DNA of 64,000 nucleotides. Source: Methanocaldococcus sp. FS406-22. Its GTDB lineage: Archaea; AGJL01; Methanococci; Methanococcales; Methanocaldococcaceae. The position numbers and the translations under genes were made by a program. The notes under the pieces are model-generated. The model did not search any database and was not told the DNA's origin. It worked only from the letters and a program-made list of their open reading frames with translations. Shown in pieces: positions 3,360 to 64,000 of this stretch. The DNA lies in the NCBI RefSeq assembly GCF_000025525.1, contig NC_013887.1, positions 444,729 to 508,728 of the forward strand. The letters run 5' to 3'. The number at the start of each line of letters is the position of its first letter. The first letter of the stretch is position 1.

Positions 3360-3781
3360 ATGAGTTTGTTGATATTTTTTGATTAAGGTGTTTTTAGGTG
3401 TTTATTATATTGTTATGTTTGTCTCGTTGAATAAACTCGGAATTTGATAAGGTTGTTAATTAGTTGGTATTTGCTTATTTAGAGGATTTAAATTTAATTT
3501 CTAAGGGTTTGTAACTTTGATTATTTGGAATATTCAGGTTTATTGAATTATTTAGATTTTTAAAATTTAAGATTAGATAGTAAGTCAAATAAAATTTCTC
3601 CAACCAATAAGTCAAATCTTCAAATTTAAAAAGATAAGAATACTCAATTTTATTAAAAGGGAAAGATTTAAATATCATTGGATTTATATTATGGAGTAGT
3701 TATTTACCCTTAGAAAAATATACTACCAAAAAGTATAAATATTAGAAGAATAATAAAAAATAGGTTGTTGATGATTGCCCT
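3360..3781 (+). promoter_or_regulatory. CRISPR leader 1
   Basis: About 420 bp of A/T-rich DNA, no supported gene. It aligns along nearly its whole length with the reverse complement of 31608-32030 in front of the second array, ending in the same TGATGATTGCCCT-like bases (ATGATTGCCCT is identical in both) just before the first repeat. Two BRE/TATA-like boxes are conserved in both copies: GGGAAAGATTTAAATATCA near 3660-3677 and AAGTATAAATATTAG at 3731-3745, the second about 40 bp before the first repeat and thus the likely promoter of the precursor crRNA. Confidence 0.85.
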
Positions 3782-4355
3782 GTTAAAATCAGACCGATTC
3801 GGTATGGAAACCGAGATTTTAAGCCATATACAAGAATGTTTAAATTAAGTTAAAATCAGACCGATTCGGTATGGAAACCAAAAGAATTATTCAAACTGAT
3901 AGATTGCCAAGTTAAAATCAGACCGATTCGGTATGGAAACTGTCAAATAATTTAGCGTATGGATTTACTCCACAGCCAGATGTTAAAATCAGACCGATTC
4001 GGTATGGAAACGATGGAAAGAAGATAGGAGGATATCCTATACACAAAAAGTTAAAATCAGACCGATTCGGTATGGAAACTTCTTTGTATGGGAGTGTGGT
4101 TGCTTCTAATAGTAGTTGTTAAAATCAGACCGATTCGGTATGGAAACGCCAATACCCACAATATTCCAAAAAATCCAATTATTGCTCGTTAAAATCAGAC
4201 CGATTCGGTATGGAAACAAAGCTTCAGTAATGCTTTTATCAGTGATAGCGTCTTGTTAAAATCAGACCGATTCGGTATGGAAACGATATTTATATTATTT
4301 TTGTTTAGATAGGCTGCTAAGTTGGTTAAAATAAGACCTCTTAGAAGATGGAAAG
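3782..4355 (+). CRISPR. CRISPR array 1: 8 identical 30-nt repeats plus a degenerate terminal repeat
   Basis: Identical 30-nt repeats (GTTAAAATCAGA, palindromic core CCGATTCGG, then TATGGAAAC) begin at 3782, 3849, 3911, 3982, 4050, 4118, 4188 and 4255. Spacers are 32-41 nt. A ninth, variant unit at 4325-4355 is 31 nt and carries CCTCTTAGAAG in place of the core; a further fragment (GTAAAATCAGACC) follows directly without a spacer. Read on the plus strand, the mature crRNA tag would be ATGGAAAC. No spacer is shared with array 2. No cas gene lies in the window. Confidence 0.97.
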
Positions 4356-17081: not shown

Positions 17082-20000
17082 TTATCTTCCCCAGAATATG
17101 TTGTTGGTTAATTTTTGCATTAATTCCATGTATCTTAATAATGCTTCTTTTTCATCGTTTCTTAGTCTATCCATGTATTTATGGTAGAGTTCTCTAACAT
17201 GGCTTTCTGGAACAGCCACATACATACAATCTCCTTCATCAACATGCCTTTTTAAAGTTATCCTACCATCTATAGCTATCGAAACTGCCTTCCCTGCCTT
17301 TGCTTCTTTAACATTCTCCCCTCTATCCTTTATCTCTCTAACATAACCTAACTGCATTCCATCCTCTCTCATTAGTGGAGCTCCAACTCTCAAAGTTCCA
17401 CAGAGAACTTCAACTCCACAAATTGCAGGGTCTTTCTGTCTAAATATACAATCTGGTAAAATTCTAACAATTGCTGGTTTGATGAGTTTTTCAAACTCAC
17501 CATATTTAATTCTCTCTTCCTCTTTCTTAACCCACTCTGTGAAGTCTTCAACTAACTTATAGATAATGTTATCTACAAATACTTTTATGTCATATTTCTC
17601 TATTTCTTTCTGAGCTTCTGGTAAAATTTTTACGTTAAAGGCAACTATCGCTCCATGTAATGGATTACTCTGCTTGTATGATGCAACTTCAATAACATCC
17701 TTCTTGGTTACATCTCCAACCTCTGCCTTCTTAATCTTAACTCCCGCCTTTCTTAACTCATTAGCTAAAGCTTCCAAAGAGCCGAGAGTATCTGCTTTTA
17801 TTAAAATTCCTTCATCATCAACCTCTATCTTTGCCTCTTCAACTTCTTTCATAACCTCTTCTTTTGCTTCCTCTATCTTATCTTTTGGAACAATCCTTAT
17901 TGGACATCCGGCTATAACTTTATCCAAATCTGGGGCGGCTATCTTAACCCCTGCAGCAGCTGTAACTTCATTTACTGGCTTAAACTTATCTCTTGGGTCT
18001 CTCATCTCATCCAATGGCTTTGGTTTTAATAAAGCTTTAACTCTTGTAACTAAAACATCATCAGGCAATCCCACAACTAAATAATCTCCCCTTCTTGCAA
18101 TTCCATCATAAATTATGGCATCTATCGTTGTTCCTAATCCTTTCTCTTCCTTAACTTCCAATATTGTTCCCTTTGCATATCCTTCAACATTAAGCTTTAA
18201 TCTATCCTCTAAAAACTTTTGGGCTAAACCTGCAACCATCATCAATAAATCAGGAATTCCTTCTCCAGTAACTGCTGAGACAGGGATGATACAGACAGTT
18301 TTTGTTACATCTTGAACTCTTGAATACAAGTCAGCATCAAAACCAAGCTCATTTAATGGTTTTATTATGTTTTCATACAACCTTATTTCAAATTCAGTTA
18401 AAGCATTTGGGTGTTGAGCCTTTTCATTAAAGTTTAAGATAAACGGCCCTTCCTTAGAATTCCATCCAGGGATTAAGTCAATTTTATTTGCTGCCACAAC
18501 AAATGGGGTTTTACATTGCCTTAATATATTAACTGCCTCAACTGTTTGTGGCTTAAAGCCCTCGTTTATATCAACAACTAATATGGCTATATCAGCCAAA
18601 GCTCCTCCTCTTTTTCTTAAAGATGTGAATGCCTCATGCCCAGGGGTGTCTATAACTAACAGCCCAGGAATTTTTAACTCTGCTTTTAACATCTTTAATA
18701 AATCTCCACATAACCTCTTTATAACATCTATTGGAATCTCACTCGCCCCTATGTGTTGGGTAATTCCACCAGCTTCTCTTTTAGCAACTCTTGTTTTTCT
18801 AATCTTATCTAAAAGTGTTGTGTTATGCACAATTATACCATTTGCTATGAAGTTGTGTGTTTCTGTTGTTAAATCATAGACGTAGCCATCATAATCAATA
18901 ACTTCAATATCTTCAACTTCAACAAATGCAATATTTTGTATTAATGATTTTATATATTCTATGTCTTCTTCTCCAAAGTCCTGGTTTTTCCAAATATTTA
19001 ATGCTTCTTTACCCAGTTCAGTTAATTTTCCATCTTTTATTAATCCATCACTTTCAAATGCTTTTAAATAATTAACATCTTTTTCTTTTCCTTCTAATAC
19101 CTTTATTTTTTTATCTAAGTTATTTGGTTTTAACGAGTTCAAAAACTTTTCAACAATCTCATAAGAAGGAATCTCTTCTCCATTCTCATATTTTGAGTAA
19201 TATGAGATATTTACCTCATTTTTAGTCATTCCAAACAGGATTCTCAATCTTTTCATATCTTTATTTATTGGATATTTTTCACTTTTTTTACTCTTTTCAA
19301 TGATTTTGTTTAAATTTTCTTCTTTATATTTTATTGAAAGTCCTATGTTTTTGAAGTTTTTTAAGTTTCTTTTACCTACGATATTTAATTGATAGTATTT
19401 CTTTTTAACTCCATTGTAAGATTTTTTAATCTCATAGATTTTTGATGTTATTTCAAATCTTAATAAAAGAACGGAAAGTCCTTCAATAAATTCCTTTGAT
19501 GCACTTACTATTTCAATTCTGTTTTGTCTTAAATTCACATGCCCATCGGCATCAAAATAACCTCTGATAAACTCTGCAACGAGTTCTTTTGGAGCAACGT
19601 ATAATATTTGTGGTATTTTTATGTTATAAGATTTTTTTTCACTTGGATAATCAAATAAGACTTTAATAAGATTAATTAATGCATTTTTCCCATTTTTAAA
19701 TATTATTTCATAAGAACTTTTTCTTTTTATTCTCTCAACTTCAATTCCTAAGCTATTCAATGATTTTAATTTGTTAAATACCTCCTCATCGTTATTTGCT
19801 ATTTTATCTTTACAACCGTCTCCAAACATAACTCCTGCAAGGTAAAACAAACTTTTCCATTCATCTAATGATTTTGGAAGTTTTATGTAATGCTTAGGTT
19901 TTCCACATCTGTGAATTCTCGGAGAAAAGGCAATTTTTTCAATATTTAGGTTATATTCTATAACATCTTCACTTCTGAAAACATTTTTCTCTTTTTTGTA

Positions 20001-20549
20001 GCTCTTTGCTGAAGGTAATTCAATATTTTCCAAATCACTTTCATCAACTTTTGCAATTAATTCACTATTTAATATCTTTGAATTTATAAATTCAATGAAT
20101 TTCTCAAAGTTATCATTTCCATAAACTTTCCTTGGTATTGCAATGTAGGTTCCTTTTTTGATATTTTCTGCTTTTACCCACCCATTATTGGTTAAGAATG
20201 GATGTTCTGGAGTTGTAGTTATTGAATGCCAATTCTTTAATTTTATTTTTATCATCTTTCCTTTATGCTTTAATCTCCATACGTAAGGGGCATTTATTAA
20301 CTCAATCTCTCCATTTTTATTTAAGCTACAAACTTTTATATCCAACTTTCTTATTTCTTTTAACTCATCTTCCTCAATAACTTCATTTCCTTTTTTAAAT
20401 AACTCCTCAATCTTAACTTCTCCATGCTCAGTTAAAACCTTCTCATAAGGCATTAAGCACTTTCCATGGTCCACGTGTCCTAAAACACAAACTATTGGAC
20501 ATCTGAGATTCTGATTTCTATTATCCTTCTTAGTGTTTTTTTTAGCCAT
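17082..20549 (-). CDS. infB: Translation initiation factor aIF5B/IF-2 with an in-frame intein
   Basis: 1155 residues including a 546-residue intein. The host factor is a ribosome-dependent GTPase for subunit joining. The G1 P-loop GHVDHGK-TTLLD is split by the intein after residue 30; G3 is DTPGHEAFT, G4 NKID. C-terminal domains follow (GVEVLCGTLRVGAPL, then VSIAIDGRITLKRHVDEGD). Removal of the intein leaves 609 residues, normal for archaeal aIF5B. The total length is the same as I recall for M. jannaschii infB (MJ0262). Confidence 0.96.
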   Translation of the reverse strand: MAKKNTKKDNRNQNLRCPIVCVLGHVDHGKCLMPYEKVLTEHGEVKIEELFKKGNEVIEEDELKEIRKLDIKVCSLNKNGEIELINAPYVWRLKHKGKMIKIKLKNWHSITTTPEHPFLTNNGWVKAENIKKGTYIAIPRKVYGNDNFEKFIEFINSKILNSELIAKVDESDLENIELPSAKSYKKEKNVFRSEDVIEYNLNIEKIAFSPRIHRCGKPKHYIKLPKSLDEWKSLFYLAGVMFGDGCKDKIANNDEEVFNKLKSLNSLGIEVERIKRKSSYEIIFKNGKNALINLIKVLFDYPSEKKSYNIKIPQILYVAPKELVAEFIRGYFDADGHVNLRQNRIEIVSASKEFIEGLSVLLLRFEITSKIYEIKKSYNGVKKKYYQLNIVGKRNLKNFKNIGLSIKYKEENLNKIIEKSKKSEKYPINKDMKRLRILFGMTKNEVNISYYSKYENGEEIPSYEIVEKFLNSLKPNNLDKKIKVLEGKEKDVNYLKAFESDGLIKDGKLTELGKEALNIWKNQDFGEEDIEYIKSLIQNIAFVEVEDIEVIDYDGYVYDLTTETHNFIANGIIVHNTTLLDKIRKTRVAKREAGGITQHIGASEIPIDVIKRLCGDLLKMLKAELKIPGLLVIDTPGHEAFTSLRKRGGALADIAILVVDINEGFKPQTVEAVNILRQCKTPFVVAANKIDLIPGWNSKEGPFILNFNEKAQHPNALTEFEIRLYENIIKPLNELGFDADLYSRVQDVTKTVCIIPVSAVTGEGIPDLLMMVAGLAQKFLEDRLKLNVEGYAKGTILEVKEEKGLGTTIDAIIYDGIARRGDYLVVGLPDDVLVTRVKALLKPKPLDEMRDPRDKFKPVNEVTAAAGVKIAAPDLDKVIAGCPIRIVPKDKIEEAKEEVMKEVEEAKIEVDDEGILIKADTLGSLEALANELRKAGVKIKKAEVGDVTKKDVIEVASYKQSNPLHGAIVAFNVKILPEAQKEIEKYDIKVFVDNIIYKLVEDFTEWVKKEEERIKYGEFEKLIKPAIVRILPDCIFRQKDPAICGVEVLCGTLRVGAPLMREDGMQLGYVREIKDRGENVKEAKAGKAVSIAIDGRITLKRHVDEGDCMYVAVPESHVRELYHKYMDRLRNDEKEALLRYMELMQKLTNNIFWGR
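18822..20459 (-). other. IF-2 intein with LAGLIDADG homing endonuclease
   Basis: Residues 31-576 of the infB product. The intein starts with Cys31 (CLMPYEKVLTEHGEVKIEEL, block A), has block B TTTPEHPFLTNNGW, two LAGLIDADG motifs (LAGVMFGDGCKD and FIRGYFDADGHVN), and ends with blocks F and G (VYDLTTETHNFIANGIIVHN); the +1 extein residue is Thr. All splicing residues are present, so it should self-splice, and both catalytic aspartates of the endonuclease look intact. It sits in the P-loop, the typical conserved target of such elements. Confidence 0.95.
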
Positions 20550-30395: not shown

Positions 30396-31607
30396 GAATG
30401 AAACATCTAAGATGTCTGATTTTAACTTTTATGCAGTAGTATATGGCAAGGCAAACAAGTGTAGTTTCTATCCTCCAAGAGGTCTGATTTTAACACTTAT
30501 AGGAAGTATCATAGCAGCACAAGCCTTTCCGGGGTTTCCATCCTCTAAGAGGTCTGATTTTAACTATGATATTAGGTTAAATACAATCGAACCTACGGAT
30601 TTAATGTTTCCATACCGAATCGGTCTTATTTTAACAGCATGTTAGGGAGACTGTAGATTCTGAAAAACTAAAGTTTCCATACCGAATCGGTCTGATTTTA
30701 ACTCATGCTATTAAGTGTTTCTGCAAGAGCCTCAACGGTTTCCATACCGAATCGGTCTGATTTTAACGGAAGAGAATGACATAATTTATGAAAAGGTTGT
30801 TGAGGAGGAGGTTTCCATACCGAATCGGTCTGATTTTAACTTAAAGAACTTGACAAAATCAGAAGTCGTCATCTCATCGTTTCCATACCGAATCGGTCTG
30901 ATTTTAACAGCAGAAAATTAAAGAATTGGAAGAAAGAGAAGCTTTAGTTTCCATACCGAATCGGTCTGATTTTAACTAGACAGTAAAGGAAATACAAAAA
31001 TGTTTAAAAGCTTGTTTCCATACCGAATCGGTCTGATTTTAACATGCTAGATATTGACGTGCGATATGATAGATTTTTGTTTCCATACCGAATCGGTCTG
31101 ATTTTAACGGAGGTTTTTCAACTGCAAATCTATATTGTTCTCCCCTGTATGTTTCCATACCGAATCGGTCTGATTTTAACAAAACTAACAACCTGCTCCT
31201 TATCCTTCACCAAATAATAAAAGTTTCCATACCGAATCGGTCTGATTTTAACTAAGTCATTCGGAGAGTTACAGAAAGCTCTAAATATCCAATCGTTTCC
31301 ATACCGAATCGGTCTGATTTTAACGAGGGGGCAACAACATACATCTGGAAAACAACAGTAGATTCGGTTTCCATACCGAATCGGTCTGATTTTAACCTTA
31401 TGAGCGTATGTTCGATTTTTCCAACTTTGCAACACTGTTTCCATACCGAATCGGTCTGATTTTAACTAGGATTAGAAGCGTTGGGGCTATTATTGGGGGA
31501 TTCTTGTTTCCATACCGAATCGGTCTGATTTTAACAAAACCCCAATTGATTTTTTATCAATGGGAATGGGGGACTTCGTTTCCATACCGAATCGGTCTGA
31601 TTTTAAC
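30396..31607 (-). CRISPR. CRISPR array 2: 15 repeats of the array 1 type plus 3 leader-distal variants
   Basis: Read on the minus strand from its leader at 31608. Canonical 30-nt repeats start (plus coordinates) at 30606, 30673, 30738, 30811, 30879, 30947, 31014, 31079, 31151, 31223, 31295, 31367, 31437, 31506 and 31578; only the 30606 copy has one change. The repeat equals that of array 1. Three 31-nt variants at 30396, 30464 and 30534 replace the CCGAATCGG core by CATCTAAGATG, CCTCCAAGAGG and CCTCTAAGAGG. The 17 spacers are 35-43 nt. Confidence 0.97.
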
Positions 31608-32030
31608 AGGGCAATCATTCACAAATTATTTTTTATTATTCTTCTTATATTTAAGCTTTTCGGAGTCATATTTTTCTAAGTATAAATAACTGTGTTTATT
31701 TATAAACCTTCTGATATTTAAATCTTTCCCTTTTAACGAAATTAATTATTCTTATCTTTCTAAATTTGAAAATTTAACTTATTAGTTAGAGAAATCTCAT
31801 TTAACTTACTATTCAATCTTAACTTTTAAAAATCTAAATAATTTAATAAACATAAATATTCCAAATAATTAAATCAATAAACCCTTAGAAATTAAATTTA
31901 AATCCTCTAAATTGATAAATACTATCTAATTAACAACCTCATCAAATTCCAAGCCTATTCAACAAGACAAACCCAACACCACAATAAAACAAATAAAAAC
32001 ATCAACAATAAAAATATAAAGAAAATCTAA
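31608..32030 (-). promoter_or_regulatory. CRISPR leader 2
   Basis: On the minus strand it matches leader 1 (3360-3781) across roughly 420 bp, including the last 11 bases before the first repeat, the box AAGCTTAAATATAAG (complement of 31646-31660) in the promoter position, and GGGAAAGATTTAAATATCA further up. It starts right behind purT and holds no supported gene. Confidence 0.85.
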
Positions 32031-57334: not shown

Positions 57335-60300
57335 ATGATACCGATGATATATAAAGAAATGTGTCCTAACTGTAACGGAGAAATAACAAGTGAAAGGTTA
57401 GCTATTGGAGTTTGTGAAAAATGTTTAAAAGAAAAAAATGTTTTTGAAAAGCTAAAATTATGTGAAAAACTTAGAGAAGAGAAAACTTTAAAGGAATTAA
57501 AAAGCTATTGCATCATTTGGAATGAATTTAAAGAGTTTGAGGAATTTGCTAAGAGTTTAGGATATGAGCTTTTAAGCATACAAAAGATGTGGGCAAAGAG
57601 GGTTTTAAAGAACAAGAGCTTTTCAATTGTAGCACCAACTGGAGTTGGAAAGAGTTTTTTTGGAATATTGATGTCTCTGTTTTTAGCTAAGAAAGGGAAA
57701 AGATGCTATATTATATTGCCAACAACACTCTTAGTTAAACAAACCTATGAGAAAATGCTATCCCTTGTAGAAAAAAATAATTTAAATATAAAAGTAGTTG
57801 CATATCATTCAGAACTATCAACAAAAGAAAAGAAAGAAGCAAAGGAAAGAATTGAAAACAACGATTATGATGTTTTAATAACAACATCCAACTTTTTAAC
57901 AAAAAACATGCCAAACTGCAGATTTGATTTTGTGTTTGTTGATGATGTCGATGCATTGTTAAAGGCTTCAAAAAACATCGATAGAACTTTAAAGTTATTG
58001 GGATTTGATGAAGAGATAATAAATGAGGCATATAAAATCATCTACCTAATAAAGATTGGAAAGATTGAGGATGCAATGAAAAAGAGAGAGATTTTAAAAG
58101 AAAAAGTTGCCAAGATAAAGCATGGATGTTTAATTATTGCCTCTGCAACTGGAAAGAGTTATGGAGATAGGGTTAAGCTCTACAGAGAGCTTTTGGACTT
58201 TGAAATTGGATTTGGAATGAACAAGCTTAGGGATGTTGTTGATATTTATGATGAGGAGTTCAGCAAAGAGAAGATTTTAGAGTATATAAAATTATTTGGC
58301 TCTGGAGGAATTGTATTTGTTTCAATTGACTATGGTGTTGAGAAAGCCCAAGAGATTGAAAAATATCTGTTAGACAACAACATTAAAGCAAAATTGATCC
58401 ATTCAAAGGATAAGAAAGGATTTGATGACTTTAGAGAGGGAAAGATTGATGTTTTAATTGGTGTTGCATCATACTATGGGGTTTTGGTTAGAGGTTTAGA
58501 TATGCCAGAAAGGGTTAGATATGCTATATTTTATGGCATTCCAAAGTTTAAAATTAGGCTGAAGGAGTATATAAACAGTTTAAAAGAAAAAGGAGAGTTA
58601 AAGGAAGATATTGACATTGAAGGAAAGACAGAGGAAGAGATTAGGCAAATAATAACTGAAAAGTTAAAGATAAAGAATTTCTCTCTAAGGAAGGAAGATG
58701 ATGAATATCTCCTATTAATTCCAGATGTAAAAACCTATATACAAGCATCTGGAAGGACTTCAAGGATGACAGAGTTTGGTTTAACTAAAGGAGCAAGCAT
58801 TGTGTTAGTAGATGAAAAAGAGATTTTTGAAGCTCTCAAAAAGTATATGCTGTTTATGTATGAGAGTGAATTTAAAAGAATAGATGAGATAAACTTAGAG
58901 GAGTTAATCAAAAAGATTGATGAAGATAGGGAGAAGATAAAAGTCGGAAGGGCTAAAGGAAAAGTTCCAGATTTGCTAAAATCAGTTTTAATGGTTGTAG
59001 AGAGTCCTAACAAGGCAAGAACCATAGCTAATTTCTTTGGAAAACCCTCTGTTAGAAAGATAAACAACAGAAATGTCTATGAAGTCTGTATTGGAGATTT
59101 AAACCTAATTATAACTGCAAGTGGGGGGCATGTCTTTGACTTAGTTACAAAAGAAGGATTTTATGGGGTTAAGATAGAAGATAACTTATACATCCCAATA
59201 TATACATCAATTAAAAAAGTAAATGGAGAGCAGTTTACTGACCAAAAGGATTTAGAGGAGTTGATAAGGCAGTTGATGGAGAAGGGAGAGAAAGTAAATG
59301 CAATGGATGCTAAAGAGAATGTAGAGATTATTAGGGAGATAGCAGATGAGGTTGATGCCATATTTATAGCAACAGATATCGATACAGAGGGAGAAAAAAT
59401 AGGCTATGACATAGCTATAAATGCCCTTCCATTCAATAAAAACATCTATAGGGTAGGATTTAATGAAATCACAAAAAGGGCTATACTAAAGGCTGTAGAA
59501 TCATTTAAGAAAGGAGATAAATTAGAGTTAGATGAAAATAAAGTTAGGGGGCAGATAGTTAGGAGAATAGAGGACAGATGGATTGGATTTAGGTTGAGTC
59601 AAAAGTTGTGGGAAGTATTTGATAAAAACTATCTGTCAGCCGGTAGGGTCCAAACGCCAGTATTGGGATGGATTATAGAGAGATACAACGAGCATAAAAT
59701 AAAAGTACCTTATCTCTCTTTAAAATTAGAAAATGACATCTATATTGGAAAGATTTGGGAGGATGAGTTTGATAAGGATGAGGTTGAGGTTGAAGTAAAG
59801 GTTTATGAGAAGGAAATTCCTCCTCTCCCACCATTCACAACAGATACTTTGTTAGAGGAAGCTACAAAGAGATTTGGCTTAAGTACCGATGAAGTGATGT
59901 CTATAGCTCAAGAACTGTTTGAATTGGGTTTGACGAGTTATCACAGAACCTCTTCAACAAGGGTTTCATTAGATGGGATGAGGGTAGCAAGAGAATACCT
60001 AAAGCTAAATAATATGGAAGATTATTTAAAAAATAGAGAGTATTTCATGGAAGGAGCTCATGAGTGTATAAGACCTACGAAACCAATGGATACTGAGGAG
60101 TTAATAGAGTTTTTAAAGGAAAACAACATAAAACTAACCAAAAACCACATAAAGGTTTATGATTTGATATTTAGAAGGTTTATTGCCTCTCAGATGAAAG
60201 AAGCAGTTGTTGAATATGAAGAGATTTATATAAAAGATTTGGATGAGAAGGTTGAGGGTTATATTGATATAAAGTTTGACGGTTGGAGCAGAATTTATAA

Positions 60301-60694
60301 TTTAAAGTTAAAAAAGCTTCCAAGGATTGAGAAAAGTACTTTAAAAGTTTTAGATAAAAAACTTAGAAAGATTCCAAAAGTTCCATTGTATGATGAGGGT
60401 GAGGTTGTTAAGTTAATGAAAGAGAGGGGTATTGGAAGACCTTCAACCTATGCTCAAATTATCAAAAAGTTGTTAGATAGGGGCTACGTCATAAAAAGTA
60501 GGGATAAAAATAAACTAATTCCAACAAAGTTGGGAATTGATGTCTATAATTATTTGATAAGTAATTATCCTCACTTAATATCTGAAGAGAGAACGAGGGA
60601 GTTAGAGGAAATTATGGATAAGATTGAGAATGGAGAAGTTGATTATTTAGAGGTTTTAAAAGCTTTACATGAAGAGATTTTGAGTATAAAATAA
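57335..60694 (+). CDS. rgy: Reverse gyrase (without intein)
   Basis: 1119 residues. It introduces positive supercoils, the hallmark enzyme of hyperthermophiles. An N-terminal zinc finger (CPNCNGEITSERLAIGVCEKC in parts), a helicase-like half with APTGVGKSFFG (about 101) and VDDVDALL, then topoisomerase IA with TOPRIM ESPNKARTIANFFG (about 555) and DTEGEKIG, and the catalytic Tyr in GLTSYHRTSSTR (about 867). The M. jannaschii protein is about 494 residues longer by an intein, absent here. GGTGTT three bases before ATG. Confidence 0.97.
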   Translation: MIPMIYKEMCPNCNGEITSERLAIGVCEKCLKEKNVFEKLKLCEKLREEKTLKELKSYCIIWNEFKEFEEFAKSLGYELLSIQKMWAKRVLKNKSFSIVAPTGVGKSFFGILMSLFLAKKGKRCYIILPTTLLVKQTYEKMLSLVEKNNLNIKVVAYHSELSTKEKKEAKERIENNDYDVLITTSNFLTKNMPNCRFDFVFVDDVDALLKASKNIDRTLKLLGFDEEIINEAYKIIYLIKIGKIEDAMKKREILKEKVAKIKHGCLIIASATGKSYGDRVKLYRELLDFEIGFGMNKLRDVVDIYDEEFSKEKILEYIKLFGSGGIVFVSIDYGVEKAQEIEKYLLDNNIKAKLIHSKDKKGFDDFREGKIDVLIGVASYYGVLVRGLDMPERVRYAIFYGIPKFKIRLKEYINSLKEKGELKEDIDIEGKTEEEIRQIITEKLKIKNFSLRKEDDEYLLLIPDVKTYIQASGRTSRMTEFGLTKGASIVLVDEKEIFEALKKYMLFMYESEFKRIDEINLEELIKKIDEDREKIKVGRAKGKVPDLLKSVLMVVESPNKARTIANFFGKPSVRKINNRNVYEVCIGDLNLIITASGGHVFDLVTKEGFYGVKIEDNLYIPIYTSIKKVNGEQFTDQKDLEELIRQLMEKGEKVNAMDAKENVEIIREIADEVDAIFIATDIDTEGEKIGYDIAINALPFNKNIYRVGFNEITKRAILKAVESFKKGDKLELDENKVRGQIVRRIEDRWIGFRLSQKLWEVFDKNYLSAGRVQTPVLGWIIERYNEHKIKVPYLSLKLENDIYIGKIWEDEFDKDEVEVEVKVYEKEIPPLPPFTTDTLLEEATKRFGLSTDEVMSIAQELFELGLTSYHRTSSTRVSLDGMRVAREYLKLNNMEDYLKNREYFMEGAHECIRPTKPMDTEELIEFLKENNIKLTKNHIKVYDLIFRRFIASQMKEAVVEYEEIYIKDLDEKVEGYIDIKFDGWSRIYNLKLKKLPRIEKSTLKVLDKKLRKIPKVPLYDEGEVVKLMKERGIGRPSTYAQIIKKLLDRGYVIKSRDKNKLIPTKLGIDVYNYLISNYPHLISEERTRELEEIMDKIENGEVDYLEVLKALHEEILSIK

Positions 60695-60700
60695 TTGGGG

Positions 60701-61678
60701 TTATCCAACATAGTTTAATAGCATTTTCCCTTTTTCACTGATTCTTACATACTTTGACTTTCCAATTTTTTCTGGCTTTTCTATCAACTCCAACTCTAAG
60801 AGTTTTTCAACGACATTTTTATTAATCCAGACCAAATCACTCTGTTTAGTAGAATTAACTGAACTTCTACACTTTTTTCTCCAATCAATAATTTTCTTTA
60901 AATCATCAATATCACTGCCAACAATATCCTTTAACTCTTTAACTAAACTCTTCATTTTTTTAACAGAACCTCCTACCGCCTTAATTAACTCTTTTATACT
61001 CCTCTCATCATATACATCAGCATTCAAAAACTCTTCTTTTGTTAAAATGCTAAGCTCTTTTATTGTTAGCCCCCTACTTCCAGCCCTACCAATAAACTTT
61101 AAAAATATTAATAACTCTTCCCTCGGCAAACTAACTTCAAATGGATAAATCAACCTAATTCCCCTAACTCCAAAACTCCTCGGTAAATAAGAGCAATCAT
61201 ACTTTTCCTTATATTCCTTCCTTAATTTTTCCCTTTCTTTTTCAGAAATATCATCTAATAACCTTTCTGGAATTACATAATAAGGAATAATCTTCGAATT
61301 TTCTTTGTTTAATATCATTGCACAAGTTGTGCCAGCAATACATCCAATTGTAGAACCAGACGATACATTAATATAAAATCTAACGTCCCCAAACTCCTTC
61401 CTCTCATGAGCTATAATATCTTTCATCTTTTTAACAATATCATCCAAATCAAATAAATCTGCTTCCACAACCTCATAATTGACCCTTTTTTCTTCAAACT
61501 TTTTAATAATTGCATTTTTAAATGCTTTTCCCTGTTCTGAATCATTATTCTCAGGCATGCAAATTAAATAAACCTTTTCAGCTCTTCTCATTATCGGAAC
61601 TTCAGTAATTCTATCCACTTCATAACCTTGAACTGCTATATGGACTCCTCCTCTTATTTTTTCTAAGTCATTCATCAT
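60701..61678 (-). CDS. CARF-like sensor with winged helix (DUF6293/HFX_2341 type regulator)
   Basis: 325 residues. The N-terminal half has a Rossmann-like CARF pattern: VHIAVQGYEVDRITEVPIMRRAEKVYLI, a ring-binding-type motif INVSSGSTIGCIAGTTCA in the middle, as in proteins that sense cyclic oligoadenylates. The C-terminal half has a winged helix (AGSRGLTIKELSILTKEEF, VEKLLELELIEKPEKIGKSKYVRISEKGKMLL). GGTGAG four bases before ATG 61678 sets the start. No nuclease domain is present, so it is more likely a regulator. It converges with rgy (6 bp). Confidence 0.75.
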   Translation of the reverse strand: MMNDLEKIRGGVHIAVQGYEVDRITEVPIMRRAEKVYLICMPENNDSEQGKAFKNAIIKKFEEKRVNYEVVEADLFDLDDIVKKMKDIIAHERKEFGDVRFYINVSSGSTIGCIAGTTCAMILNKENSKIIPYYVIPERLLDDISEKEREKLRKEYKEKYDCSYLPRSFGVRGIRLIYPFEVSLPREELLIFLKFIGRAGSRGLTIKELSILTKEEFLNADVYDERSIKELIKAVGGSVKKMKSLVKELKDIVGSDIDDLKKIIDWRKKCRSSVNSTKQSDLVWINKNVVEKLLELELIEKPEKIGKSKYVRISEKGKMLLNYVG

Positions 61679-61701
61679 TTCACTCACCTCATTAAAAACA
61701 G

Positions 61702-61718
61702 TAAGCATAGTATGCTTA
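61702..61718. promoter_or_regulatory. Perfect 17-bp palindrome, candidate operator
   Basis: TAAGCATAGTATGCTTA has two 8-base arms and a central G. It lies 24 bp before the CARF regulator start and 77 bp before the divergent gene at 61795, where a repressor would control both. The half-site with its flank (AGTAAGCAT, A/T, GTA) recurs at 62360-62372. Confidence 0.5.
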
Positions 61719-61794
61719 ATCAATAGTATGTAATATATTCTTTTTGCCATATATACATTATTGGCATCGTAATCTTCGAGATAAGAGGGATATC

Positions 61795-62355
61795 ATGGGT
61801 TCTGCAAATGCTTTTATAATTGTTGGAAGGCCAGATTTCTTGCATAATGGGATTTATCCGACACACTGTTTAATTCTCCACGAGAATGACAAACCATGGT
61901 GGGTTTTAACTCCAATCATGAGATTTTCAAAAGATAAGTCTAAAAACTGTGACATAATCGTTTGGATTCCAACTGTTGAGCATATGCTTGAAGATGCCTT
62001 GCTAATGATTGGAATATACATAATTAAAGACAAAGAGCTCGTTTCACTTGCTAAAAAGTTCTTCAAAAATATGGAAGGGAATAGAATCTGGCTGTATGAG
62101 GATATAGAAAAAGAACATTTGGAAAAACTTAGGGAAGTTTGTAAAAAAGTGTTATCAAAGTATAATCTCAAAATTGTCATGGCAATAACTTTGGATAGCA
62201 CAATACTACACCAAATTGATGTTTTAAAGGACTATAAAATTGAGTGTGAAGTTTGCACTACAAGATTTGGACGATGGAGGAAAGGTTGGAGGGGAGAATT
62301 GAAAGAATTTGAAGAATATGACATTTTAAACAAAAGTAGAAGGTTACTGGAGTAA
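61795..62355 (+). CDS. Uncharacterised 186-residue protein divergent from the CARF regulator
   Basis: I do not recognise the family. It is soluble, with a beta-rich start (ANAFIIVGRPDFLHNG, THCLILHENDKPWWVLTPI), a central helix run (VEHMLEDALLMIGIYIIKDKELVSLAKKFF) and an end with CEVCTTRFGRWRKGWRGEL, in which CxxC and many Arg/Trp could bind nucleic acid or metal. ATG 61795 follows GAGGGAT by three bases; the longer form from 61744 has no site. It shares the palindrome with the CARF regulator. Confidence 0.6.
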   Translation: MGSANAFIIVGRPDFLHNGIYPTHCLILHENDKPWWVLTPIMRFSKDKSKNCDIIVWIPTVEHMLEDALLMIGIYIIKDKELVSLAKKFFKNMEGNRIWLYEDIEKEHLEKLREVCKKVLSKYNLKIVMAITLDSTILHQIDVLKDYKIECEVCTTRFGRWRKGWRGELKEFEEYDILNKSRRLLE

Positions 62356-62359
62356 TGAT

Positions 62360-62372
62360 AGTAAGCATTGTA
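62360..62372. promoter_or_regulatory. Second copy of the GTAAGCAT motif
   Basis: AGTAAGCATTGTA resembles one arm and centre of the 17-bp palindrome at 61702 (AGTAAGCATAGTA). It lies about 95 bp upstream of the gamma-glutamylcyclotransferase-like gene, near a related AGTAAGTATTATT at 62387-62399. A shared regulator would link the two units. Confidence 0.35.
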
Positions 62373-62454
62373 AGGTTACTAAGGTAGTAAGTATTATTTA
62401 TCACTTTGTATATTACATTATTCATGAGCATTACAAACCCCAAACAGTGATACT

Positions 62455-62817
62455 ATGGAGTATGTGTTTGTCTATGGGAGTTTAAGAAAGGGCTTTTGGA
62501 ATCATGAGGCTTATTTAAAAGATAGCAAATTCATTGGAAAAGGCAAAACCAAAGAGAAATATGCCATGTATGCCAATATCATTCCCTACGTTGTTGAAAA
62601 TGAGAAAATCTCTCACATTGTTGGAGAAGTTTATGAAGTTGATGAAAAAACCTTGGAGAGGATTGATTGCCTTGAAGGACATCCACACTTCTATAGAAGA
62701 AAGAAAGTTCCAATAATTTTAGAATCTGGGGATGAAATAGAGGCTTGGATATACTTCTATCCGGAACCTTGTGGAGTTTTGGTAGAATCTGGAGATTATA
62801 AGGACTATAGGGGATAA
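62455..62817 (+). CDS. Gamma-glutamylcyclotransferase-fold protein (GGCT/AIG2-like)
   Basis: 120 residues. VFVYGSLRKGFWNHEAYL is the substrate-binding YGSLRxG loop, and the acidic residue that acts in cyclisation lies in GEVYEVDEKTLERIDCLEGHP. Proteins of this fold release 5-oxoproline from gamma-glutamyl amines or peptides. The true substrate is not known. Its stop is 2 bp before the glutamine amidotransferase gene, so both belong to one operon. Confidence 0.85.
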   Translation: MEYVFVYGSLRKGFWNHEAYLKDSKFIGKGKTKEKYAMYANIIPYVVENEKISHIVGEVYEVDEKTLERIDCLEGHPHFYRRKKVPIILESGDEIEAWIYFYPEPCGVLVESGDYKDYRG

Positions 62818-62819
62818 AT

Positions 62820-63866
62820 ATGTGTGAGTTACTTGGAATTTGCTTTAATAAGAAAGTTAATGTTAATTTATCCTTGAATAGCTTTAAGCATAGGAGTGAA
62901 GAGCATCCGAACGGTTGGGGAATTGCATTCTATCCAGATGGCTTTGTTAGATTGATAAAAGAGCCGATTAAGATGAATGATGCTTTATTAGCTGAATGTG
63001 TTAGATGGACTAAGATAAAATCAAAGATATTCATTGCCCACATAAGAAAGGCGAGTGCTGGAAGTGAATCTTATGTTAATACCCACCCATTCATTAGAAG
63101 ATTAGATGGTAGGGAGATTGCCTTTGCCCATAATGGGACTTTACTTGGATATGAGGATTTAGAGCTTGATGGGTATTATCCAATTGGAGAGACGGATTCA
63201 GAGTATGTATTCTGCTATCTGCTATCTCAAATTGGAAGGAGAGGGATTGAGTGGAATAAGGAGGGGTTTGATGAGTTATTGGATATATTAAGAAGGAAAA
63301 TTAACAAATATGGGGCTTTTAATTGTTTATTCTCTGATGGAGAGTATTTGTTTGCTTATAGGGATTGTAAAGGTAGGAGAAAGTTGCATTTCTTAAAGAG
63401 AAAGCCACCCTATGGAAGAATTAGGTTGGAGGATGAGGATTATGTTATAAACTTGGGGGATGTTAAAAGTGCAAATGAAGAGGGGTTTATTATAGCTACA
63501 AATCCTCTAACTAATGAGAATTGGATGAGTTTTGAAAATGGGGAGTTGATAGTGTTTAAAAATGGGGAGATGATTTACTCTAATAAGAGATTAACTGACT
63601 TAGAATTGAAAATATTAAAAATCCTTAGAGAAAGCCCACATAGGGTTAGTTTAAGAAATATTATTAAAAATCTCAACCGTTTATCTCGAAATATAAGATA
63701 TGATAGTTCTGTTGTGAGAATTGGGATTAGAAGTTTGTTGGATAAGGGATATATTAAGCAGAATGGTACGGATACTGTAAGTTGGAATCATTTAGATGCA
63801 ACGTTTTATACAAAACCAGAGAAGAGGGAAGAGATTGATAGAAGGCTTAGAGAATTTGAATGGTAG
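62820..63866 (+). CDS. Class II glutamine amidotransferase fused to a C-terminal winged helix
   Basis: 348 residues. Cys2 (MCELLGICFN) is the Ntn nucleophile, followed by RSEEHPNGWGIAFYPDG, IAHIRKAS, NTHPFIRRLDGREIAFAHNGTL and YPIGETDSEYVFCYL, all hallmarks of GAT-II domains. From about residue 258 on, DLELKILKILRESPHRVSLRNIIKNL and VVRIGIRSLLDKGYIKQ form a winged helix, a domain not expected in an amidotransferase. GAT-II domains hydrolyse glutamine and pass ammonia on, but no synthase part is present. Confidence 0.85.
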   Translation: MCELLGICFNKKVNVNLSLNSFKHRSEEHPNGWGIAFYPDGFVRLIKEPIKMNDALLAECVRWTKIKSKIFIAHIRKASAGSESYVNTHPFIRRLDGREIAFAHNGTLLGYEDLELDGYYPIGETDSEYVFCYLLSQIGRRGIEWNKEGFDELLDILRRKINKYGAFNCLFSDGEYLFAYRDCKGRRKLHFLKRKPPYGRIRLEDEDYVINLGDVKSANEEGFIIATNPLTNENWMSFENGELIVFKNGEMIYSNKRLTDLELKILKILRESPHRVSLRNIIKNLNRLSRNIRYDSSVVRIGIRSLLDKGYIKQNGTDTVSWNHLDATFYTKPEKREEIDRRLREFEW

Positions 63867-63917: not shown

Positions 63918-64000
63918 ATGGATGAGATGGAGGCAATGCAGATTAAAGATTTTGTAAAGGATATGGATAAAACTCAGAGGATTGTTTATTATGAGCAGAA
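63918..64000 (+). CDS. Start of an unidentified gene
   Basis: ATG 63918 follows GGGGTGATGAGTT and the frame (MDEMEAMQIKDFVKDMDKTQ...) is open to the window end. Only 27 residues are visible, charged and helical, so no family can be named. It follows the amidotransferase gene by 51 bp in the same direction. Confidence 0.5.
   Translation, partial: MDEMEAMQIKDFVKDMDKTQRIVYYEQ

Follow-up and report, generated by a model that had tools for sequence, protein, structure and literature searches.

The genome of Methanocaldococcus sp. FS406-22 encodes a CARF protein that is probably a dedicated local transcription switch, of the CARF-winged-helix (CARF-wHTH) type, for a horizontally mobile defence superoperon. 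This reading is drawn from sequence comparison and fold prediction across 36 genomes of the lineage, seven of which (G000, which is FS406-22 itself, and G004, G007, G009, G012, G034 and G035) hold a close orthologue of the regulator. The window, a 64 kb stretch of the FS406-22 chromosome, contains the regulator and, back to back with it, the head of the operon; it ends 83 bases into a gene for a TM2-domain membrane protein and the operon continues past its edge, so the defence genes were hidden from the initial annotation. Two predicted copies of an operator, an array of GTAAG repeats, lie ahead of the rightward genes (Table 1).

Table 1 Features of the regulator locus (window coordinates, except for the last row)
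Feature	Position	Strand	Remarks
CARF-winged-helix regulator, 325 aa	60704..61678	-	stop codon 60701-60703; Pfam, PADLOC, AF2 and PDB fold matches
Predicted operator copy 1, GTAAG-repeat array	61700..61739	+	38 bits; G000:C1:506428-506467; holds the palindrome
Perfect palindrome TAAGCATAGTATGCTTA	61702-61718	.	two 8-bp arms and one central base
186-aa accessory gene, family not matched	61795..62355	+	in 3/7 loci, always between regulator and GGCT
Predicted operator copy 2, GTAAG-repeat array	62359..62401	+	48.7 bits; G000:C1:507087-507129
GGCT (gamma-glutamyl cyclotransferase, AIG2-like), first core gene	62455..62817	+	Pfam GGACT, E 9e-31; 7/7 loci
Class II glutamine amidotransferase, YafJ type	62820..63866	+	GATase_4, E 6e-81; 1te5 relative
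TM2-domain membrane protein, 102 aa (start only)	63918..64000	+	runs beyond window
memb103, p530, McrB-like AAA+, McrC, MBL nuclease	L103:3668-11773		after TM2, outside window

A CARF fold joined to a winged helix

The initial annotation described a CARF-like domain with an INVSSGSTIG loop, joined to a winged helix and devoid of a nuclease, and profile searches bear this out. The loop is present, and in Pfam the protein matches HFX_2341_N at 111 bits (E 6e-32, cut-off 30) and the winged-helix family DUF6293_C at 30.6 bits (cut-off 27). The PADLOC CARF3 profile PDLC01869 aligns with it from end to end at 444.7 bits. Searches with Pfam, NCBIfam and PADLOC profiles detected no nuclease domain, and those with Pfam and NCBIfam no AAA+ domain in the 325 residues, so the CARF-AAA+-HTH architecture of RtcR is not present. 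Structure prediction gave an AF2 model with a pLDDT of 87.5, whose best fold matches in the PDB were Thermus Csm6, Card1, cA4-bound Cam1 and Can2; CARF proteins account for all 14 PDB matches with E < 0.001. The assignment of a CARF fold is solid, and the description as a CARF-winged-helix protein free of a nuclease holds. No CARF relatives were found in viral contigs. Translation starts at the ATG at 61678, which has a fitting Shine-Dalgarno sequence ahead of it (GAGGTGAGTGAA-ATG); the in-frame extension of the reading frame, with its 5′ end at 61750, is spurious, and it is this extension that overlaps the palindrome.

Candidate ligands

Csa3 proteins, the CARF-wHTH regulators of type I-A cas genes, bind cA4 (PMC8699464, PMC8844856). 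Their motif 2 reads small-small-G-hydrophobic-R, and an Arg98-to-Ala mutant loses cA4 binding (PMC8844856). The regulator is not a Csa3, since it scores below the Csa3 cut-offs (TIGR01884, 23.8 against 60.2; Csa3_N, 17 against 27) and lacks the motif 2 arginine: the equivalent stretch is SSGST, with Thr110 at the position of Arg98. Among relatives within the order, Thr, Ser or Val occupies this position in 11 of 11 aligned sequences, with no basic residue, while a lokiarchaeal relative has Lys there. Motif 1 of Csa3 (hydrophobic-G-F-N/D-x-polar-F) is partly similar, with GYE or GFE at the equivalent place, and its adenine-stacking position is plausibly kept in the GYE of the regulator. As the basic residue that is essential for cA4 in Csa3 is a threonine here, the identity of the ligand is left wide.

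FS406-22 carries a type III-A system with a GGDD, cyclase-competent Cas10, 57 kb downstream of the regulator. In G009, a Cas10-Csm2-5 operon with Csx1 (L015:40-7945) ends 8 bp from the regulator stop codon, tail to tail; among the close loci this is the only one in which cas10 adjoins the regulator, and linkage to cas genes of the Csa3 kind is not seen. Six of the seven close-orthologue loci are in genomes with Cas10. Co-occurrence is uninformative, because Cas10 is almost universal in the genus, a true Cas10 being present in 12 of 14 family genomes. No Cas10 was detected in G007 (86% complete), though this genome has a close orthologue, or in the near-complete genomes of two relatives, G015 and G019. 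We keep a cyclic oligoadenylate among the candidate ligands, with a chance that we judge to be about even or slightly better.

The same switch might instead respond to a signal that does not come from Cas10, for instance cyclic-phosphate RNA ends or another nucleotide, which would make the module independent of CRISPR. We regard this as a serious contender that falls somewhat short of being probable. It is favoured by the missing basic residue of motif 2, by the relatives in genomes without detectable Cas10 and by the plasmids of haloarchaea that carry the wider DUF6293 family, three stretches of which have no annotated cas genes. RtcR provides a precedent, cyclic-phosphate RNA ends having been proposed as its signal (PMC9650030, PMC11090510), and the nucleases encoded downstream of the regulator could make RNA ends themselves. 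Against it stand the presence of Cas10 in the genomes of six of the seven loci, the position of the G009 regulator beside the Csm-Csx1 operon and a fold that is closest to cA4-binding proteins.

A GTAAG-repeat array as candidate operator

Between the regulator and the divergent gene, the initial annotation had placed a perfect palindrome, which lies exactly there, with half-site copies before the next operon; these are at 62362 (TAAGCATT) and 62388 (TAAGTATT), within operator copy 2 upstream of GGCT. By itself the palindrome is unremarkable, because such inverted repeats are not rare in this AT-rich DNA, and perfect ones with 8-bp arms and a 1-nt spacer occur three times in the window. The weight of a regulatory element is thus carried by position and by conservation across genomes. 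A genome search found the perfect form upstream of no other orthologue; it is private to FS406-22 and was rejected as the conserved element. Two 9-bp units, GTAAGCATA and GTATGCTTA, make up this local variant, which differs by a single base (GTAAGCTTA to GTATGCTTA). The regulatory idea survives in altered form, because a homologous GTAAG-repeat element, as distinct from the palindrome, is present upstream of every close orthologue.

In all seven, GTAAG units recur about 9 bp apart in an AT-rich element with the consensus TAGTAAGTATAGTAAGCTTACTAAGATAGTAAGTATTATATAT; operator copy 1, between the regulator and the 186-aa gene, is the FS406-22 member of this set and has homologues in the six other genomes. 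Mean self-identity of the arrays reaches 0.51 at a lag of 9 and 0.46 at a lag of 18, compared with a background of ~0.32, making 9 bp the strongest period. Taken alone, copy 1 of FS406-22 shows the 9-bp repeat weakly, ranking in the top 3.5% of windows; copy 2 of G009 and the array of the distant G019 paralogue have four to five units in exact 9-bp steps. We considered whether the period could be a coding artefact, 9 bp being three codons of an upstream extension of the reading frame. This was rejected on two grounds: in G004, G009 and G034 even the longest regulator reading frame has its start just past the array, no more than 9 nt from the assigned ATG, and a second array stands before GGCT.

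Palindromes are commonly preferred by winged-helix dimers, and the conserved element could be a palindromic dimer site, with the 9-bp repetition as a coincidence. Several orthologues share TAAG-N9-CTTA, and TTACTA-N3-TAGTAA is present in some arrays. We consider this reading unlikely, since half of the sites have GTTA, TTTA or TATA in place of the right-hand CTTA, whereas the second GTAAG is mostly kept, and lags of 9 and 18 give the strongest periodicity.

With zero or one mismatch, the motif AGTAAGYATNGTAAGNTTA matches almost only at the regulator locus in the 14 family genomes, the one exception being in G011. A 44-bp profile of the array scored 33-50 bits at nine sites, all at the regulator locus, and 19 bits or less elsewhere in the 36 genomes; the profile was trained on these same sites, and only the absence elsewhere counts as independent evidence. 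The tenth training site, copy 2 of G009, is a shifted array that matches the profile in part (15.9 bits). Profile and pattern searches of the 36 genomes revealed no convincing second site that would point to a regulon elsewhere, such as at cas genes or CRISPR arrays. The switch therefore looks local rather than global, because the array profile scores high only at the regulator locus.

It is improbable that the array is bound by another factor, either a general regulator or the amidotransferase by way of its winged-helix tail, while the CARF protein acts elsewhere. The amidotransferase has an intact N-terminal Cys and a winged-helix-like C-terminal region, the wHTH part of a CARF3 profile in PADLOC matches its residues 240-315, and its co-occurrence is perfect. 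Profile comparison of this tail with the regulator found no relationship. Distant CARF paralogues that have no amidotransferase neighbour nevertheless keep TAAG repeats of their own upstream: G019 has four to five units, spaced at exactly 9 bp, and G001 and G011 have TTAAGCATATAAAGCTTAA.

A fixed gene pair at the head of a variable operon

The initial annotation had proposed a response module that included GGCT and the amidotransferase. Both are core genes, found beside the regulator in all seven loci, and the module extends beyond them to the McrBC-type, helicase and nuclease genes past the window as its predicted output. The operon head comprises GGCT and the amidotransferase in 7/7 loci and the TM2 protein in 6/7. 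The middle is variable, with memb103, p530 or a TPR protein, and the tail is drawn from McrB-like AAA_5, McrC, an RNase-J-like protein with MBL/RMMBL domains and, in genomes other than FS406-22, RecD-like PDC-S68 helicases or, in G009, TmtA. McrC homologues occur in six of the seven loci, and McrBC-type or helicase defence genes follow the head on the same strand in every one. FS406-22 has a gene pair of the McrBC type, McrC (PF10117, E 3e-60) beside AAA_5 (E 2e-16). Gaps of ~200-360 bp precede McrB and McrC in this genome, and the tail may have internal promoters. The p530 gene (L103:3976-5807), between the membrane genes and McrB, encodes 530 residues with weak coiled-coil-like matches only, and related or split versions occur in G004 and G034. 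At the memb103 position after TM2, G004 and G007 have a small opposite-strand reading frame (MxRSSSVDVVVRHFF...; L098:2969-3436 and L104:7344-7670).

The divergent 186-residue protein, which had been assigned to no family, indeed has no match in Pfam, NCBIfam, PADLOC, PHROGs, the PDB, plasmids, viral contigs or genome contigs. Its AF2 model, with three near-identical sequences behind it, is uninformative (pLDDT 47). Where the gene occurs it is always at a regulator locus, as co-occurrence with CARF genes would have it, but this holds for only three of the seven loci (G000, G009 and G034), making it an accessory gene rather than the defining partner of the regulator. When it is present, one array precedes it and another precedes GGCT. 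The accessory gene may have brought its own array copy, or it may have been lost elsewhere by recombination between arrays.

Close homologues of the amidotransferase (E < 1e-215) are found in exactly the same seven of the 36 genomes, all others scoring 1e-9 or weaker, and regulator and amidotransferase share one locus in 7/7. Between G012, of the same genus as FS406-22, and G035, of another family, the regulator is 93% and the amidotransferase 95% identical; for comparison, the reverse gyrases of G012 and G035 are 81% and 72% identical to that of FS406-22. The regulator locus is at different chromosomal places among the genomes. Judged by the 93-95% identity across families, the operon head is horizontally mobile. 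Distant paralogues of the regulator stand alone beside ksgA (G001 and G011), among helicase and exonuclease genes (G015) or, at 35% identity, immediately ahead of type I HsdS/HsdM genes (G019). G033 carries a truncated regulator (L078:5626-6360; 59% identical) whose N-terminal part is gone, apparently a decayed copy; the 13 kb examined there hold no GGCT-amidotransferase operon.

The enzyme pair recurs in Thermococcales. Plasmid pTBMP1 of Thermococcus barophilus has GGCT and the amidotransferase with McrC (DUF2357 and PD-DExK), an AAA ATPase, a TPR protein and an RNase-J-like protein. Identity of this RNase-J-like (MBL) protein to its FS406-22 counterpart is 68%, and the TPR proteins of pTBMP1 and G035 are 65% identical. 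Island PYG1 of Pyrococcus yayanosii holds GGCT and the amidotransferase together with McrBC (PMC5126054). No close relation was detected between the T. barophilus and methanogen McrC proteins, so what recurs is a gene association and not one inherited block. Only these two enzymes accompany the regulator in all seven loci while the downstream content varies, yet a metabolic regulator of gamma-glutamyl metabolism, with the defence genes as unrelated later neighbours, is improbable given the patchy, horizontally moving distribution, the McrBC-type or helicase genes in every locus and the association of the pair with McrBC-type genes in Thermococcales, where no regulator was seen beside it.

Further features were seen in the window. 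A CRISPR array occupies 3781-4275 (repeat GTTAAAATCAGACCGATTCGGTA, ~67-bp spacing), and a repeated FPYRIGLIL translation suggests a second short array-like stretch at ~31130-31700, near 31.4 kb. Reverse gyrase (57335-60694) is uninterrupted in FS406-22, G012 and G035; in G004, G007, G009 and G034 a break near residue 868 divides the match within a single frame of ~1460-1660 residues, as expected for an intein. At 17082-20549 a translation factor (VLGHVDHGKC), in a 1155-residue frame, is interrupted right after GHVDHGK, a probable IF-2 intein.

Relation to known systems

With the CARF3 clade (PDLC01869; HFX_2341_N and DUF6293_C) the regulator shares the full-length match, the fold, the winged helix and the lack of a nuclease. 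That family entry has been given neither a function nor a target, whereas the regulator comes with a conserved candidate operator and a defence operon. Csa3 has the same architecture and presumed dimeric mode, with a motif 1 that is similar in part (GYE against GF-N/D); it differs in the motif 2 arginine and in targeting cas genes, while the predicted target of the regulator is its own adjacent operon, via the repeat array.

The CARF domain of RtcR controls transcription (PMC9650030), and CARF genes head the CoCoNuT superoperons (PMC11090510). The likeness lies in a CARF transcription regulator that heads a McrBC-type restriction superoperon (PMC9650030, PMC11090510). RtcR, however, carries an AAA+ sigma54 module, whereas the regulator is an archaeal wHTH factor, divergently encoded, with GGCT, amidotransferase and TM2 as the head genes, and CoCoNuTs are described as nearly absent in archaea (PMC11090510). 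By analogy, the module would work like the RtcR/CoCoNuT arrangement and Csa3, as a member of neither.

The pTBMP1 cassette and module III of PYG1 (PMC5126054) resemble the operon in placing GGCT beside a class II amidotransferase, with McrBC-type and TPR genes, on mobile DNA, and pTBMP1 also shares the RNase-J-like gene with FS406-22. They differ in the reversed order of GGCT and amidotransferase, in their annotation as metabolism and in the addition of an ADP-ribosylglycohydrolase gene, which lies between GGCT and the TPR gene on both pTBMP1 (L133:9316-10257) and PYG1 and gives a hint that modified proteins or nucleotides may be what the GGCT-amidotransferase cassette handles. No CARF regulator occurs in the pTBMP1 stretch or in the PYG1 table (PMC5126054). 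A methanogen CARF-wHTH protein, MM_0565 of Methanosarcina mazei, binds its own promoter (PMC7465815); unlike the regulator described here, it is linked to a type I-B locus and a casposon, and no binding motif was found for it (PMC7465815).

Proposed mechanism and implications

We propose that several subunits of the regulator assemble on the array and contact it through their winged helices. Reading the TATA-like and BRE positions by eye, the array lies between the TATA-like box and the start codon of the regulator, from where the protein would repress its own gene. It also lies just upstream of, or abuts, the BRE/TATA of the rightward promoter, where archaeal activators typically sit, and from there the regulator would control the operon. 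A nucleotide made during infection would bind the CARF dimer and change its DNA-bound state, such that expression of the defence genes would rise on demand and not otherwise. This ligand would most likely be a cyclic oligoadenylate made by the type III-A Cas10 of the same genome; this is the weakest step of the scheme.

A bolder version is a long shot. In it, a CRISPR second messenger or a second nucleotide signal would switch on transcription of the McrBC-type superoperon, itself not a CRISPR system, through the CARF-wHTH protein and a 9-bp-repeat operator, and GGCT and the amidotransferase would act as a novel type of effector. Since gamma-glutamyl bonds are what both families cut, the two enzymes might, in a methanogen, strip cofactors that contain such bonds (F420, methanofuran) and thereby halt energy metabolism during infection.

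Outside CRISPR loci, CARF-winged-helix proteins bear family names, mostly without assigned targets. A concrete candidate operator, a fixed gene set and a mobile defence operon are now attached to one of them, and such wiring, a CARF switch back to back with a defence cluster, had not been linked before to the CARF3 family. The pair of GGCT and class II amidotransferase, filed as metabolism (PMC5126054), is a recurrent cargo of McrBC-type islands in two archaeal orders. If the signal is a cyclic oligoadenylate, type III CRISPR would act through transcription to mobilize an innate set of restriction genes.
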